The notes beneath the pieces were generated by a model. It made no database searches and was not told the DNA's origin. It worked only from the letters and a program-made list of their open reading frames with translations. From the IMG/VR virus record IMGVR_UViG_3300042483_000223, positions 1 through 24,968 of that record: 24,968 nucleotides of DNA; one strand, written 5' to 3'. Every line of letters begins with the position of its first letter. Within the stretch, counting starts at the first letter, position 1. The position numbers and the translations under genes were made by a program. This DNA is from a virus. Positions 3,560-24,779 of this stretch are shown one piece after another.

Positions 3560-3622
3560 TTAACTCCAAGCCATGAATAATGGAGCGAAATTTGCAACGA
3601 TGAATTCGACCTCTCGTCGCCG
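3513..3622 (-). ncRNA. Candidate small RNA with terminator loop pairing
   Basis: A weak promoter-like pair (TTGCAT at 3647-3652, TAAATT at 3625-3630, minus strand) would start an RNA near 3620. It would run through a 9-base segment GAGGTCGAA (3613 to 3605) and a CTCCA/TGGAG hairpin, and end at the 3513-3559 terminator. The terminator loop contains TTCGACCTC (3543 to 3535), exactly complementary to that segment, so a pseudoknot is possible. No ORF fits here. This is inference from sequence only. Confidence 0.35.
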
Positions 3623-3624
3623 CG

Positions 3625-17027: not shown

Positions 17028-17373
17028 AGGCTTTGCGCTTGCGTTTCGTTAGGGAAAACAACGGTATTTTGCGGTGAATTGTGGCAGTTTTCGGCATTGA
17101 AACTTTCCCTTGCGCTTTTTCGCAAATATGCAACCTTTGCACATGCACCCAAGCAGGCGGCGGATTTTGCGAAGATTTAAGCTCATGAAAAAAAGGCACT
17201 TTGCCGCTTGGATGCTTGCATTTTTGCAAACGGTTTCCAGCAAGTGAGTTTTTACTTGCGCTTTTTTGCTCGGCTGGTATCTTTCGCTGGAGCTTGTCAA
17301 ACGGTGTATGCCGCCTAGCAAGTGAGCAGATCCCCCATGCCTCTCAACGATGCACACTTGGGGGATATTTTTT
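17028..17373 (+). ncRNA. Candidate rightward noncoding RNA
   Basis: The 487 bases from 16927 to 17413 hold no credible gene. This part runs from a promoter candidate to a rightward terminator and is rich in short hairpins (TTGCG/CGCAA near 17113; CAAGTGA/TTACTTG at 17241-17258). A 20-codon ORF (MKKRHFAAWMLAFLQTVSSK) at 17185 looks like a signal-peptide-sized minigene but has no SD. A replication origin is another possibility. Confidence 0.3.
17330..17373 (+). terminator. Rightward rho-independent terminator
   Basis: ATCCCCCA (17330-17337) pairs perfectly with TGGGGGAT (17359-17366), with a 21-base loop and ATTTTTT (17367-17373). No rightward gene ends here, which is why a small RNA is suspected upstream. 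Confidence 0.65.
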
Positions 17374-21794: not shown

Positions 21795-22112
21795 TTAGTA
21801 GTTATTTTGTCCTTGTTCAAGTGTAATTTGTGAGTATTTTTCCAATATCTTGCGCATTCGTTCCTTTGACTTCTCGCAATAGTGCAAGCGTTCATAAGTC
21901 TTTTTCCGTGCGTAAAATGCTGCTGTGTGATGGGTTCGGTTCACGATTTCGGCTGAGTCCTGGAGCGAGTGAGCCTCACTCCATAACGTCATGACGATCT
22001 GCCTTGCGAGAGCCTCGGAGAACCGTTTACGCTTGCCCGCGATGGCCTCAGGAGTCACCCCGAGAACGTCCGCAACGGATTGTATCAATGCGCTTTTGTT
22101 GTCGATCAGCAT
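21795..22112 (-). CDS. Stand-alone DnaA domain-IV-like DNA-binding protein
   Basis: A 105-residue protein from MLIDNKSALIQSVADVLGVT. ALARQIVMTLWSEAHSLQDS then AEIVNRTHHTAAFYARKKTY resembles the C-terminal domain of DnaA, the part that binds DnaA boxes, where RDHTTV and the preceding basic helix contact DNA; here THHTAA replaces it. The ATPase domain is missing. It may mark the phage origin or compete with host DnaA. The start at 22112 overlaps the upstream stop by 7 bases. Confidence 0.68.
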   Translation of the reverse strand: MLIDNKSALIQSVADVLGVTPEAIAGKRKRFSEALARQIVMTLWSEAHSLQDSAEIVNRTHHTAAFYARKKTYERLHYCEKSKERMRKILEKYSQITLEQGQNNY

Positions 22113-22348
22113 GAGAAAAGGGCGACTAGTTGTTTGCGCAGATTCTCGGAAATGATCATAGTGGAGTCTGTAGCTGATGCCCATCTATCAACGTGCATTT
22201 CTGAGCAGGTTAACACCCAATTCACGCGATCATTTGCAGGGGGAATGATTCGGAAATAAGTGCCAGTGAGTTTTTTCGTCTGCACGTCTTTTGTCTTGCT
22301 GTCGGTGACAATAACGAGGGGGTCTTCTGTTTTTTGGTATAGTGTCAT
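22106..22348 (-). CDS. Hypothetical protein just downstream of hammerhead ribozyme 1
   Basis: An 80-residue, probably beta-rich protein (MTLYQKTEDPLVIVTDSKTK; TGTYFRIIPPANDRVNWVLT). The start at 22348 is chosen because it follows the ribozyme by a 20-base leader (conserved GCCAATTA then CAAC). The in-frame ATG at 22408 lies inside the ribozyme core and would add a junk-like N-terminus. Function unknown. Confidence 0.62.
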   Translation of the reverse strand: MTLYQKTEDPLVIVTDSKTKDVQTKKLTGTYFRIIPPANDRVNWVLTCSEMHVDRWASATDSTMIISENLRKQLVALFSC

Positions 22349-22356
22349 GTTGTAAT

Positions 22357-22368
22357 TGGCTTGTGCCA
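22357..22368 (-). promoter_or_regulatory. Post-cleavage 5' hairpin, competes with ribozyme 1 stem I
   Basis: UGGC (22368-22365), the 3' arm of stem I, can pair instead with GCCA (22360-22357) across the loop ACAA. The GCCAAUUA that provides the second arm is conserved at ribozyme 2. This could release the product, protect the new 5' end, or switch the ribozyme off. Confidence 0.5.
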
Positions 22369-22415
22369 TACACCCCGCAGGGTGTTTCGATCTTTGCCTG
22401 GATCTCATCAGTGGC
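22365..22415 (-). ncRNA. Hammerhead ribozyme 1 (type I topology)
   Basis: On the minus strand: stem I 5' arm GCCA (22415-22412), core CUGAUGA (22411-22405), stem II GAUC/GAUC (22404-22401 and 22392-22389) with an 8-base loop, core GAAA (22388-22385), stem III ACACCC/GGGUGU with loop UGCG, cleavage nucleotide A (22369, site GUA), and stem I 3' arm UGGC (22368-22365). All core positions are canonical, and the last A of GAAA opens stem III. The UGA stop of the gene ending at 22408 is U4-G5-A6 of the core. Cleavage would leave the next mRNA starting at 22368. Stem I is only 4 bp, so loop contacts or co-transcriptional folding may be needed. Confidence 0.85.
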
Positions 22416-22731
22416 GTTTTTCCTCAAGCTCGCAAATCAATTGCCAGTCATTCAGCCACAACGCGCCTTCCATTACAACGCATTTTTGAGAGATGAATTT
22501 CCGAACAATGTCTGCTTTTGCTTGTGCTGCGCTCGCTCGTTTCATCTCATGCTTCCAGCCCTTGAGCCATTCGCCGGCATTAGTTTTGTCGCGGCGTTTA
22601 CTCTCAATAGATGCGATGGCGCGCGCATTGTTGGCGACCCATTCCGTTTCGCAGCAATCAATCTCGAATGACAGCTCGTAAGGGTTCTTGAGAGCTAATT
22701 GCTCTGCTTTTTCGTAGGTGATTTGCTTCAT
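22408..22731 (-). CDS. Hypothetical protein ending in a ribozyme core
   Basis: A 107-residue, helical charged protein (MKQITYEKAEQLALKNPYEL; FEIDCCETEWVANNARAIAS; GEWLKGWKHEMKRASAAQAK) ending EEKRH. The start at 22731 is preferred to 22803, which would overlap the upstream gene. Its CAC-TGA end lies in hammerhead ribozyme 1: the last codon and stop supply part of stem I and the core. The leader is CA-rich (CACCACAACC). Function unknown. Confidence 0.65.
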   Translation of the reverse strand: MKQITYEKAEQLALKNPYELSFEIDCCETEWVANNARAIASIESKRRDKTNAGEWLKGWKHEMKRASAAQAKADIVRKFISQKCVVMEGALWLNDWQLICELEEKRH

Positions 22732-22754
22732 GGTTGTGGTGTGTGTGTGCGGTG

Positions 22755-22770
22755 GGATCTCATCAGTGGC
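22755..22770 (-). pseudogene. Broken hammerhead: 5' half only
   Basis: Sixteen bases identical to the first 16 of ribozyme 1 (GCCA, CUGAUGA and GAUCC), at the same place relative to a gene end: the UGA of the 22763 gene lies in the core. The GAAA core, stem III and UGGC are missing; a CA-rich leader follows instead. This looks like a decayed or recombined copy and should not cleave. Confidence 0.65.
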
Positions 22771-23038
22771 TATCTGTGCCGCAGCAACCGCAGCATGGCG
22801 CATCTTCGCACATACCGGATCTGTTGCGGTAAATCACCGCTCCGGTGTTCATGCGGTAAAATGTGGTTTTGTCATATCTGTGGCTGTGGCTCCGGTTTGG
22901 TGCGCCGGAGACTAAGGCGCGCGCCTCGTCTGCTACCTCGTCGGGAACATCCCAGCCTTTGGCTAGTTTGTTCCATTTGCCGCCTAGTGCCTTTATGGCA
23001 TCTTTTACGGGGTATGTGTTGCCTGTTATCGTTTGCAT
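22763..23038 (-). CDS. Hypothetical protein (TGNTYPVKDAIKALGGKWN type) with Cys cluster
   Basis: A 91-residue protein. MQTITGNTYPVKDAIKALGG then KWNKLAKGWDVPDEVADEAR matches a small domain common in phage and plasmid proteins (TYPVKDxLxxLGGKWNxxxKGW). The end carries a Cys cluster (CEDAPCCGCCG), as in small zinc-binding proteins. It ends SH, with its stop in the broken ribozyme motif. Function unknown; nucleic-acid binding is plausible. Confidence 0.68.
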   Translation of the reverse strand: MQTITGNTYPVKDAIKALGGKWNKLAKGWDVPDEVADEARALVSGAPNRSHSHRYDKTTFYRMNTGAVIYRNRSGMCEDAPCCGCCGTDSH

Positions 23039-23515: not shown

Positions 23516-23554
23516 TTTGTCTGTGTGTTGTGTTGCGGTGTTTGTCCCGCCCTA

Positions 23555-23585
23555 TGCCCTCTCTGTGACGAGAGAGCAACGGGCA
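23555..23585. other. Stem-loop in the gap after 23592 gene
   Basis: CTCTCT (23559-23564) pairs with AGAGAG (23571-23576) around loop GTGACG, extended by TGCC/GGCA after a 5-base bulge. It occupies the 76-base spacer between two leftward genes, the same kind of place where the ribozymes lie, but has no CUGAUGA or GAAA core. Function unknown. Confidence 0.4.
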
Positions 23586-23591
23586 AGGCAA

Positions 23592-24083
23592 TCAATCGCA
23601 GTTGCAATATACTAGCGCGTCTGAGTAGTTGCAGCCCCATTCCTCCGCGAGTGCTGCGGCGTGGTCGCCTGGGCGTTCCGTGGCTGGCACTGGGGCTTGT
23701 CTCTCGGTGCGTCTGTAAGCGGAATCAATCAAGCTCGCGGCTTGGTGTAGGGCGCGCGTTTGCACGTCGAGCCATGTCTCGGTTTTGTTCGGCTGGTTGT
23801 CGCCGTTCTTGGTGCGCTTCAGCTCTGACGGGCTGCAGAGTCTCTCTGCAATGTCGGCGTTGTAAATAAGAGCGTTTCCTCCGTAAGAGAACGCGCTCCA
23901 GTTTGCCGCGCCATTCAGGAGCTTTTCGGGGCTATAGGTCGGGTCCAGCTGGTCGGCTAGTGCCTCAACCATTTCGAGCGCGTATGCTTTGACCCCGCGC
24001 TTCCATGCGGATGTTGCGGGGCTTGCTGCGATGATGGCAAGGGCGGCTTGTGTCGTGTTGTCGTGTTGTGTTGTCATATTCAT
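23592..24083 (-). CDS. Hypothetical protein downstream of hammerhead ribozyme 2
   Basis: A 163-residue protein from MNMTTQHDNTTQAALAIIAA. KRGVKAYALEMVEALADQLD, then ANWSAFSYGGNALIYNADIA, ERLCSPSELKRTKNG and TWLDVQTRALHQAASLI form a pattern seen in uncharacterised phage early proteins. The start at 24083 shares a 23-base start module with the gene at 24410; the ATG at 24113 is inside the post-cleavage hairpin and is rejected. Function unknown. Confidence 0.68.
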   Translation of the reverse strand: MNMTTQHDNTTQAALAIIAASPATSAWKRGVKAYALEMVEALADQLDPTYSPEKLLNGAANWSAFSYGGNALIYNADIAERLCSPSELKRTKNGDNQPNKTETWLDVQTRALHQAASLIDSAYRRTERQAPVPATERPGDHAAALAEEWGCNYSDALVYCNCD

Positions 24084-24094
24084 GTTCAAGTTGT
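24072..24094 (-). repeat. Duplicated leader/start module, copy 1
   Basis: Twenty-three bases identical to 24399-24421, covering the end of the leader (ACAACTTGAAC on the minus strand) and the first codons ATGAATATGACA. Both genes therefore share the same initiation region, without an SD. Confidence 0.85.
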
Positions 24095-24107
24095 AGTTGT
24101 AGTTAAT

Positions 24108-24118
24108 TGGCATTGCCA
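24108..24118 (-). promoter_or_regulatory. Post-cleavage 5' hairpin, competes with ribozyme 2 stem I
   Basis: UGGC (24118-24115) can pair with GCCA (24111-24108) over an AAU loop instead of with the ribozyme 5' arm. The same GCCAAUUA follows ribozyme 1, so the switch is conserved between the two elements. Confidence 0.5.
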
Positions 24119-24160
24119 GACCCTTTCGGGTTTCGCCTATTGCCTAGGCTCATCAGTGGC
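24115..24160 (-). ncRNA. Hammerhead ribozyme 2 (type I topology)
   Basis: On the minus strand: stem I 5' arm GCCA (24160-24157), core CUGAUGA (24156-24150), stem II GCCUA/UAGGC (24149-24145 and 24139-24135) with loop GGCAA, core GAAA (24134-24131), stem III ACCC/GGGU closed by a GAAA tetraloop, cleavage nucleotide C (24119, site GUC), and stem I 3' arm UGGC (24118-24115). GUC is the most favoured hammerhead cleavage triplet. Stems II and III differ in sequence from ribozyme 1 but keep pairing, which is covariation in favour of a real RNA. The UGA stop of the 24153 gene is inside the core. Confidence 0.9.
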
Positions 24161-24410
24161 TTGTTTCAATTTCAGGGACGGCGCAAGTCTTGCCAGTGAT
24201 AGTGTCGTAAACCATCGGGCGGCGATTGTATTGTAAAGCGGTGGCATAGGCTAAGTCTTGCAACCTGTCAGCGGTTGCCACTACGCATTCCATGTCATCC
24301 AGCAGTTCATAGCGAGGCTTGGCGGGTATTCCCACGATGGCAATGGCGTGTCCGCTCTCAATCTTGCCAGTAACGTGTTTTCTAAGTGTCTGTAATGGTG
24401 TCATATTCAT
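24153..24410 (-). CDS. First gene of recombination operon, hypothetical
   Basis: An 85-residue protein from MNMTPLQTLRKHVTGKIESG; AIVGIPAKPRYELLDDMECV then TADRLQDLAYATALQYNRRP and an end VPEIETSH. The beta-alpha layout suggests a compact small domain; no family recognised. The start is set at ATG 24410; an upstream TTG (24416) is in frame. Its CAC-TGA end lies in hammerhead ribozyme 2. A long leader (about 360 bases) connects it to the promoter at 24780. Confidence 0.65.
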   Translation of the reverse strand: MNMTPLQTLRKHVTGKIESGHAIAIVGIPAKPRYELLDDMECVVATADRLQDLAYATALQYNRRPMVYDTITGKTCAVPEIETSH

Positions 24411-24421
24411 GTTCAAGTTGT
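24399..24421 (-). repeat. Duplicated leader/start module, copy 2
   Basis: Identical to 24072-24094 over 23 bases. The identity continues with one mismatch into a GTTGT-type repeat, pointing to a duplication of the initiation region rather than of the whole gene. Confidence 0.85.
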
Positions 24422-24779
24422 GGTTGTGCTCACCGCTTTATTCGTCGCGGCGGGAAGAACTTACCAAATATCGCGGCATTGTCTACAACATTTTTACAAC
24501 TATTTTTACTTTTCTTCTTTTCTGTTGATTCTCAAGGGTTTATTGCAGAAGATTTTTTCAGCATTGCTAGCAACAAGCGAGGAAAACAGAGAGCAAACAA
24601 TCATTTTCAGGCTGATCGGCAGAGAATCAAGCGAGAGAATCATCAGGGAGAAGCAAGGAGAGAATCAAGGCATCTCAGAAACCTATTCACTCACTCTAAA
24701 AATAATCATCAACACACGCTCATTACCTGGCAAGCAACGGATGTCATCAGTGCATTAACAACCAGTGTTTCTTGTACCG
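24422..24779. other. Long leader/control region of the recombination operon
   Basis: No convincing gene. It contains an A/T tract (24487-24518) similar to the one at 16990-17024, three copies of AGAGAATCA (24621-24629, 24634-24642, 24659-24667), and runs of purines. Leftward transcription from 24780 would cross it. Possible roles are operator sites, a leader RNA or an origin; none is proven. Confidence 0.4.

Follow-up and report, generated by a model that had tools for sequence, protein, structure and literature searches.

Type I hammerhead ribozymes at the gene boundaries of a phage operon: likely separators of messages from shuffled gene cassettes

Introduction

In 2011, several hammerhead ribozymes were reported to flank single genes or short gene blocks of varying identity in prophages, and processing into operon- or single-gene mRNAs was proposed for them (Perreault et al., 2011; PMC3088659). 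Tandem arrays of this kind cleave in vitro and one of them also in E. coli, and approximately 40% of the clustered hammerheads of prophages and bacteria contain a loop pseudoknot (PMC3088659). A hammerhead variant of the haloviruses HF1 and HF2 is located 13 nt upstream of a start codon, with a mapped 5' end no more than 3 nt from the cut (PMC3088659). In bacteria and phages, hammerhead and twister ribozymes are also co-located near the same genes, the biological reason for which was stated to be unknown (PMC10085705). RiboJ, finally, is an engineered element that combines the sTRSV hammerhead with a 23-nt hairpin after a promoter (PMC6206723, PMC8794103).

Here we analyze a stretch of viral DNA of 24,968 nt, approximately 25 kb (IMG/VR record IMGVR_UViG_3300042483_000223; referred to as the window). 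It belongs to a tailed phage whose near-complete relatives comprise about 38 kb, and it carries ribozymes at the gene boundaries of one operon. We consider it likely that these type I hammerheads separate and standardize the messages of shuffled gene cassettes.

Results and Discussion

Hammerhead ribozymes in the window

Ribozyme 1 is situated on the minus strand between two cistrons (Table 1). Read from 24160 to 24115, it consists of GCCA, the core segment CUGAUGA, stem II (GCCUA/UAGGC, loop GGCAA), GAA, stem III (ACCC/GGGU, loop GAAA), the C preceding the predicted cut, and UGGC. Stems I, II, and III have 4, 5, and 4 bp, respectively, with the A15.1-U16.1 pair counted in stem III. Both complete ribozymes of the window possess the type I core, CUGANGA followed by GAAA and with UH at the cleavage site (C17 in ribozyme 1, A17 in ribozyme 2), and three helices with the open end at stem I. 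As the first-pass annotation had reported, all invariant hammerhead elements of ribozyme 1 occur in order at this position, and the UGA of the upstream gene coincides with U4-G5-A6 of the core. The 5'-OH end that it had predicted at 24118 is the one we also predict from C17 at 24119, and intercistronic processing, which it had put forward, appears to be the best reading of a type I hammerhead between two cistrons. RNA folding of the region reproduced the three-way junction together with an outer AAUUG/CAAUU helix; the fold energy by itself is unremarkable (z -0.93), and the stretch 5' of stem I shows no conservation among relatives.

The first-pass annotation had further proposed a search with the Rfam hammerhead models. 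Ribozyme 1 indeed matched Hammerhead_HH9 (RF02275; 29.5 bits, E = 0.001), but missed the gathering score of 52, and Hammerhead_1 gave 33.1 and 30.4 bits on relatives at a gathering score of 34; these thresholds are curated database cut-offs and do not describe a structural feature. Ribozyme 2, which had been overlooked, is complete and again contains a stop codon within its core, the UGA at 22410-22408 of gene 22408-22803 (minus strand) forming U4-G5-A6. It was not picked up by Rfam in the whole-window search, and in a local search it matched the RAGATH-1 hammerhead with 24.4 bits. A covariance model made from relatives assigned 65.4 bits (E = 4.6e-15) to ribozyme 1 and 73 bits to ribozyme 2, values that express family support and are no independent test, because both belong to the 30 sequences of the model. 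This model yielded 94 matches in 54 loci, and its only strong matches in the window are these two. By chance, one match is expected per 400 simulated 25-kb windows at equal stem requirements, whereas the window has two.

A third site, likewise overlooked, comprises only the 5' half of a hammerhead at the end of gene 22763-23038, and complete ribozymes are found 3' of the versions of this gene in relatives (L156, L161, L175). The GCCACTGATGAG located there (22759-22770) was considered as another ribozyme, but has neither GAAA nor stem III and is regarded as a truncated copy. The window's other CTGATGA...GAAA matches (1126, 7174, 8161, 20065) lack stems and were rejected. Elsewhere in the window, an abiF RNA (RF03085) was detected on the plus strand at 17331-17366, with 42.4 bits exceeding its gathering score of 37.

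Table 1. Positions in the window of the ribozymes, their predicted products, and the adjoining genes.
Feature	Position	Strand	Remarks
Upstream gene of ribozyme 1, family F2	24153..24416	-	87 aa from TTG 24416; ATG at 24410 likely
Type I hammerhead ribozyme 1	24115..24160	-	Stem I to stem I; predicted cleavage between 24119 and 24118
UGA stop of upstream gene	24153..24155	-	U24155-G24154-A24153 = U4-G5-A6 of ribozyme 1 core
Start of ribozyme 1 3' product, UGGC-AAU-GCCA	24108..24118	-	First 11 nt after predicted cut
Downstream gene of ribozyme 1, family F5	23592..24083	-	~163 aa from ATG 24083, 35 nt past cleavage site
Truncated hammerhead	22755..22770	-	GCCACUGAUGAGAUCC, 5' half only, at end of gene 22763-23038
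Upstream gene of ribozyme 2	22408..22803	-	131 aa from first ATG; likely start is ATG near 22732
Type I hammerhead ribozyme 2	22365..22415	-	Stems I 4, II 4, III 6 bp; A17 = 22369; predicted 5'-OH 22368
Start of ribozyme 2 3' product, UGGC-ACAA-GCCA	22357..22368	-	
80-aa gene, family F0	22106..22348	-	Starts 20 nt past cleavage site 2; hammerhead-like element in leader in 22/22 relatives found

A ribozyme family in related phages

Searches of IMG/VR with two neighboring proteins and the ribozyme pattern retrieved 62 distinct ribozyme contexts, approximately 50 of which are of one type. This main type is composed of GCC(A/G)-CUGANGA, a stem II whose loop usually contains GGC, GAAA, a stem III of 4–8 bp, C or A at position 17, and UGGC-N3-5-GCCA. 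Records of relatives contain one to five ribozymes, and arrays of at least two on one strand that separate genes occur in the window (two complete copies) as well as in relatives (up to five). Across 30 sequences, 95.7% of the cells were paired, and 47 double changes compared with 13.2 in shuffles, a number reached by none of 500 shuffles, in a collection whose members outside the F0 set mostly stem from patterns requiring paired stems, a type of search that favors such pairing. Stems II and III covary strongly, while stem I is nearly invariant and has one covarying pair.

A cleaner set is provided by 22 F0 loci, which were found only via the 80-aa protein and not via the ribozyme. All of them (16 distinct leaders) have kept the CUGANGA and GAAA cores 20–23 nt before the ATG, and they contain several different stem II sequences, all of which pair except for one broken first pair in L186. 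The core in L008 reads CUAACGA; this replacement of TGA by TAA retains the stop and loses G5, and judging from the sequence it should kill the ribozyme. Single copies are dispensable, because the window has a truncated copy, L186 a damaged one, and L008 this core change.

At the DNA level, no named phage matched either the window between 10 and 25 kb or the ribozyme. The one with the most similar capsid (54%), Phage C75C1, lacks a hammerhead, and GTDB genomes gave no match to one strict ribozyme pattern. Scanning with a loose hammerhead pattern produced mostly chance matches and was discarded. Two further occurrences are recorded separately: an unrelated phage record (L102 533-4549, minus strand) in which seven hammerhead matches fall within 4 kb, five of them strong and two of these five with a stop in the core, and a weaker hammerhead (L174 5980-6036, plus strand) on a contig whose four other hammerheads use the opposite strand.

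Other ribozyme classes at gene boundaries

The type I model had no hit in one 37-kb record (L012), whose capsid protein is 69% identical to that of the window. This record contains a type II hammerhead (3563-3624; found by pattern) and a twister-P1 (4940-4997; 45.9 bits, gathering score 67.2), each just past a stop codon and closely followed by an ATG. Type II hammerheads are present at such sites also in L010 and L011 (34.3 and 32.6 bits, respectively; gathering score 37). Models of pistol, hatchet, and HDV-like ribozymes had no match in 25 records each, and no positive control was matched by them either. Since other ribozyme classes occupy comparable slots, it seems from these sequences to be cleavage at gene boundaries that is selected.

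The same three records also contain hairpins resembling tRNA T-arms (L010 3162-3214 and 4712-4762; L012 3174-3232, 4053-4117, and 4480-4528; L011 near 4349), with a stem of 6–7 bp and a 7-nt loop UUCAAUC or similar, approximately 13 nt past stop codons. Their stems differ yet pair, and no tRNA was found at these sites.

Stop codons in the ribozyme core

According to simple ORF calls, from which leader lengths were also taken, the upstream stop lies in the core (+1) in 25 of 52 related ribozymes and upstream of it, mostly at -6 to -25, in 26; thus, 51 of the 52 have it in or 5' of the core. Position -7 accounts for 11 of the 52, and nearly all of the remaining non-core stops are within -25. A frame that reads C-UGA necessarily ends in the core. 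Within one upstream gene family the stop can shift, in F2 between +1, -7, and -10 and in F1 between +1 and -7.

The first-pass annotation had suggested that cleavage could depend on translation of the upstream gene. In such a switch, a ribosome terminating at the UGA would cover the core and the cut would be made only when the upstream gene is untranslated. This coupling would fit the window, where both ribozymes have the stop at U4-G5-A6, and the family, where 25 of 52 members do; in nearly all other ribozymes, termination at -7 to -12 would likewise leave the core under the ribosome. However, the stop moves inside single gene families, the type II hammerheads and the twister of related phages sit just past the stop and not in it, and tight gene packing accounts for the stop positions without coupling. 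We therefore do not favor the switch and regard it as unlikely. The stop in the core, common but optional, rather looks like a frequent by-product of a tight fit than like a special switch: CUGANGA contains UGA, and it would be economical packing for the upstream gene to end there or a few bases earlier.

Exchange of gene cassettes around the ribozymes

The genes adjoining the ribozymes vary among the phages. Across the ribozyme, F2 is followed by F3, F5, F8, F9, F10, or F21, and the gene preceding F0 belongs to F1, F4, F6, F7, F19, or F22, six families in either case. Start codons of the family loci are mostly 20–44 nt past the cut, and their leaders are A/C-rich and mostly lack a Shine-Dalgarno motif. 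Many minus-strand genes between 10.6 and 24.4 kb of the window also have A/C-rich leaders without this motif, which suggests that translation initiation in the host does not require it. Two other features of this region were noted. Firstly, a 37-nt repeat (89%; 24064-24100 and 24391-24427) covers, in two consecutive genes, the leader together with the first codons. Secondly, a very stable long hairpin (z -7.2) occurs on the minus strand at 23534-23600, between gene 23592-24113 and the one that follows; on visual inspection, its changes in L015 and L027 are compensated, and it may be a processing element, of the RNase III type or another.

The cassette between two GCCACTGATGAGATCC copies in the window looks like an insertion by recombination inside a ribozyme. 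Hammerheads might serve mainly as recombination joints or selfish sequence tags, short conserved islands for cassette exchange in which cleavage is incidental. That the window cassette is bounded by these two copies with the junction inside the ribozyme is consistent with such a function, as is the occurrence of one ribozyme allele beside different genes and of different alleles beside one gene. If only DNA identity mattered, neither the compensatory changes in stems II and III nor the other ribozyme classes in similar slots would be expected, and we consider this explanation improbable, slightly more so than the switch. That the hammerhead-like sequences are inactive relics in this phage, as the sub-threshold Rfam scores, the truncated window copy, and the core mutant L008 might indicate, is very improbable in view of the strong covariation and of two complete copies where one match per 400 windows is expected.

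Proposed processing of the operon message

The reading that we prefer is that the ribozymes probably divide a single long message into messages of separate genes. In type I geometry, the entire ribozyme lies 5' of the cut. While a polycistronic RNA is being made, each ribozyme would thus cleave directly after its own 3' end (24119|24118 and 22369|22368). With its stop codon retained, the upstream message would end in the stem II and III hairpins of the ribozyme with a 2',3'-cyclic phosphate, and the downstream message would begin with a defined 5'-OH end, followed by the UGGC-N3-5-GCCA hairpin, a short A/C-rich leader, and the ATG 20–40 nt on. In this way, cutting would likely separate and standardize the cassette messages, the leader of a gene being constant whatever lies upstream, and it may affect the stability or translation of the messages. 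By analogy, the ribozyme would be a natural counterpart of the RiboJ insulator.

UGGC-N3-5-GCCA is present at the start of the downstream product in 48 of 51 ribozymes and is predicted to form a hairpin there in which the very first base takes part in pairing, as expected of a RiboJ-like element; at TGGC sites of the phages in general, a GCCA follows in this manner far more rarely (52/805, ribozyme copies included). In ribozyme 1, the possible 5'-terminal hairpin (24108-24118) excludes stem I; alternatively, its GCC could pair with the GGC of loop II. Loop II carries GGC in 47 of 51 cases and the 3' flank GCC in 48 of 51, and in two ribozymes of L171 the two sides have changed jointly (UUGGCG/CGCCAA and UUGGCU/AGCCAA, 6-nt matches). 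Outside the family, hairpin and loop II contact are near chance level. Neither is proved by covariation within it, because both are nearly invariant in sequence. The two are likewise inseparable by covariation, and both constraints may act in turn on the GCC.

A more far-reaching and tentative idea is that interchangeable self-cleaving RNAs serve this phage lineage as natural insulators that make cassettes portable. In the type I version, the stem I 3' strand and the flanking GCC, which would stabilize the ribozyme before the cut, might afterwards refold into the 5' hairpin, releasing and protecting the downstream message. Cistron separation and insulation both become directly testable with short RNAs and reporters.

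Comparison with known systems

Hammerhead arrays around phage genes and the idea of processing (PMC3088659) and the co-location of hammerhead and twister (PMC10085705) are already published, so that the statement of the first-pass annotation that the arrangement is undescribed is not supported. Of the shared stop codon itself, the searchable papers, mainly open ones outside the subscription journals, contain no description. As far as these papers show, the frequent sharing of stop codons, the strictness of the slot, the retention of the ribozyme before one downstream gene amid changing neighbors, and the class swap between related phages are new.

Like the arrays of Perreault et al. (PMC3088659), the ribozymes described here occur as multiple hammerheads around genes of varying identity, with processing of long phage RNA as the proposed function, and they may form a loop contact of the kind known from those arrays. 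They differ in the stop codon, which often lies in the core, and in the tight downstream spacing; moreover, one type I family with GCCA/UGGC-N3-5-GCCA could be tracked over many related phages, with a swap of class in one lineage. The hammerhead of HF1 and HF2 shares the location shortly upstream of a phage start codon, but is a single ribozyme with a variant core in archaeal viruses. As in RiboJ, which gives the downstream gene a standard 5' end and insulates it (PMC6206723, PMC8794103), a hairpin follows the hammerhead and might act similarly; the elements of the phage are natural and intercistronic, however, and the hairpin has 4 bp and uses the stem I 3' strand itself.

The co-location described previously (PMC10085705) likewise concerns different classes near the same kinds of genes, whereas here the swap occurs between related phages in an exact slot consisting of stop codon, ribozyme, leader, and ATG. 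With this one slot, its strict spacing, the leader ribozyme in 22 of 22 F0 loci amid changing neighbors, and other classes in similar slots, the set offers a concrete, testable answer to the question of what maintains hammerhead and twister ribozymes close to genes of phages and bacteria.
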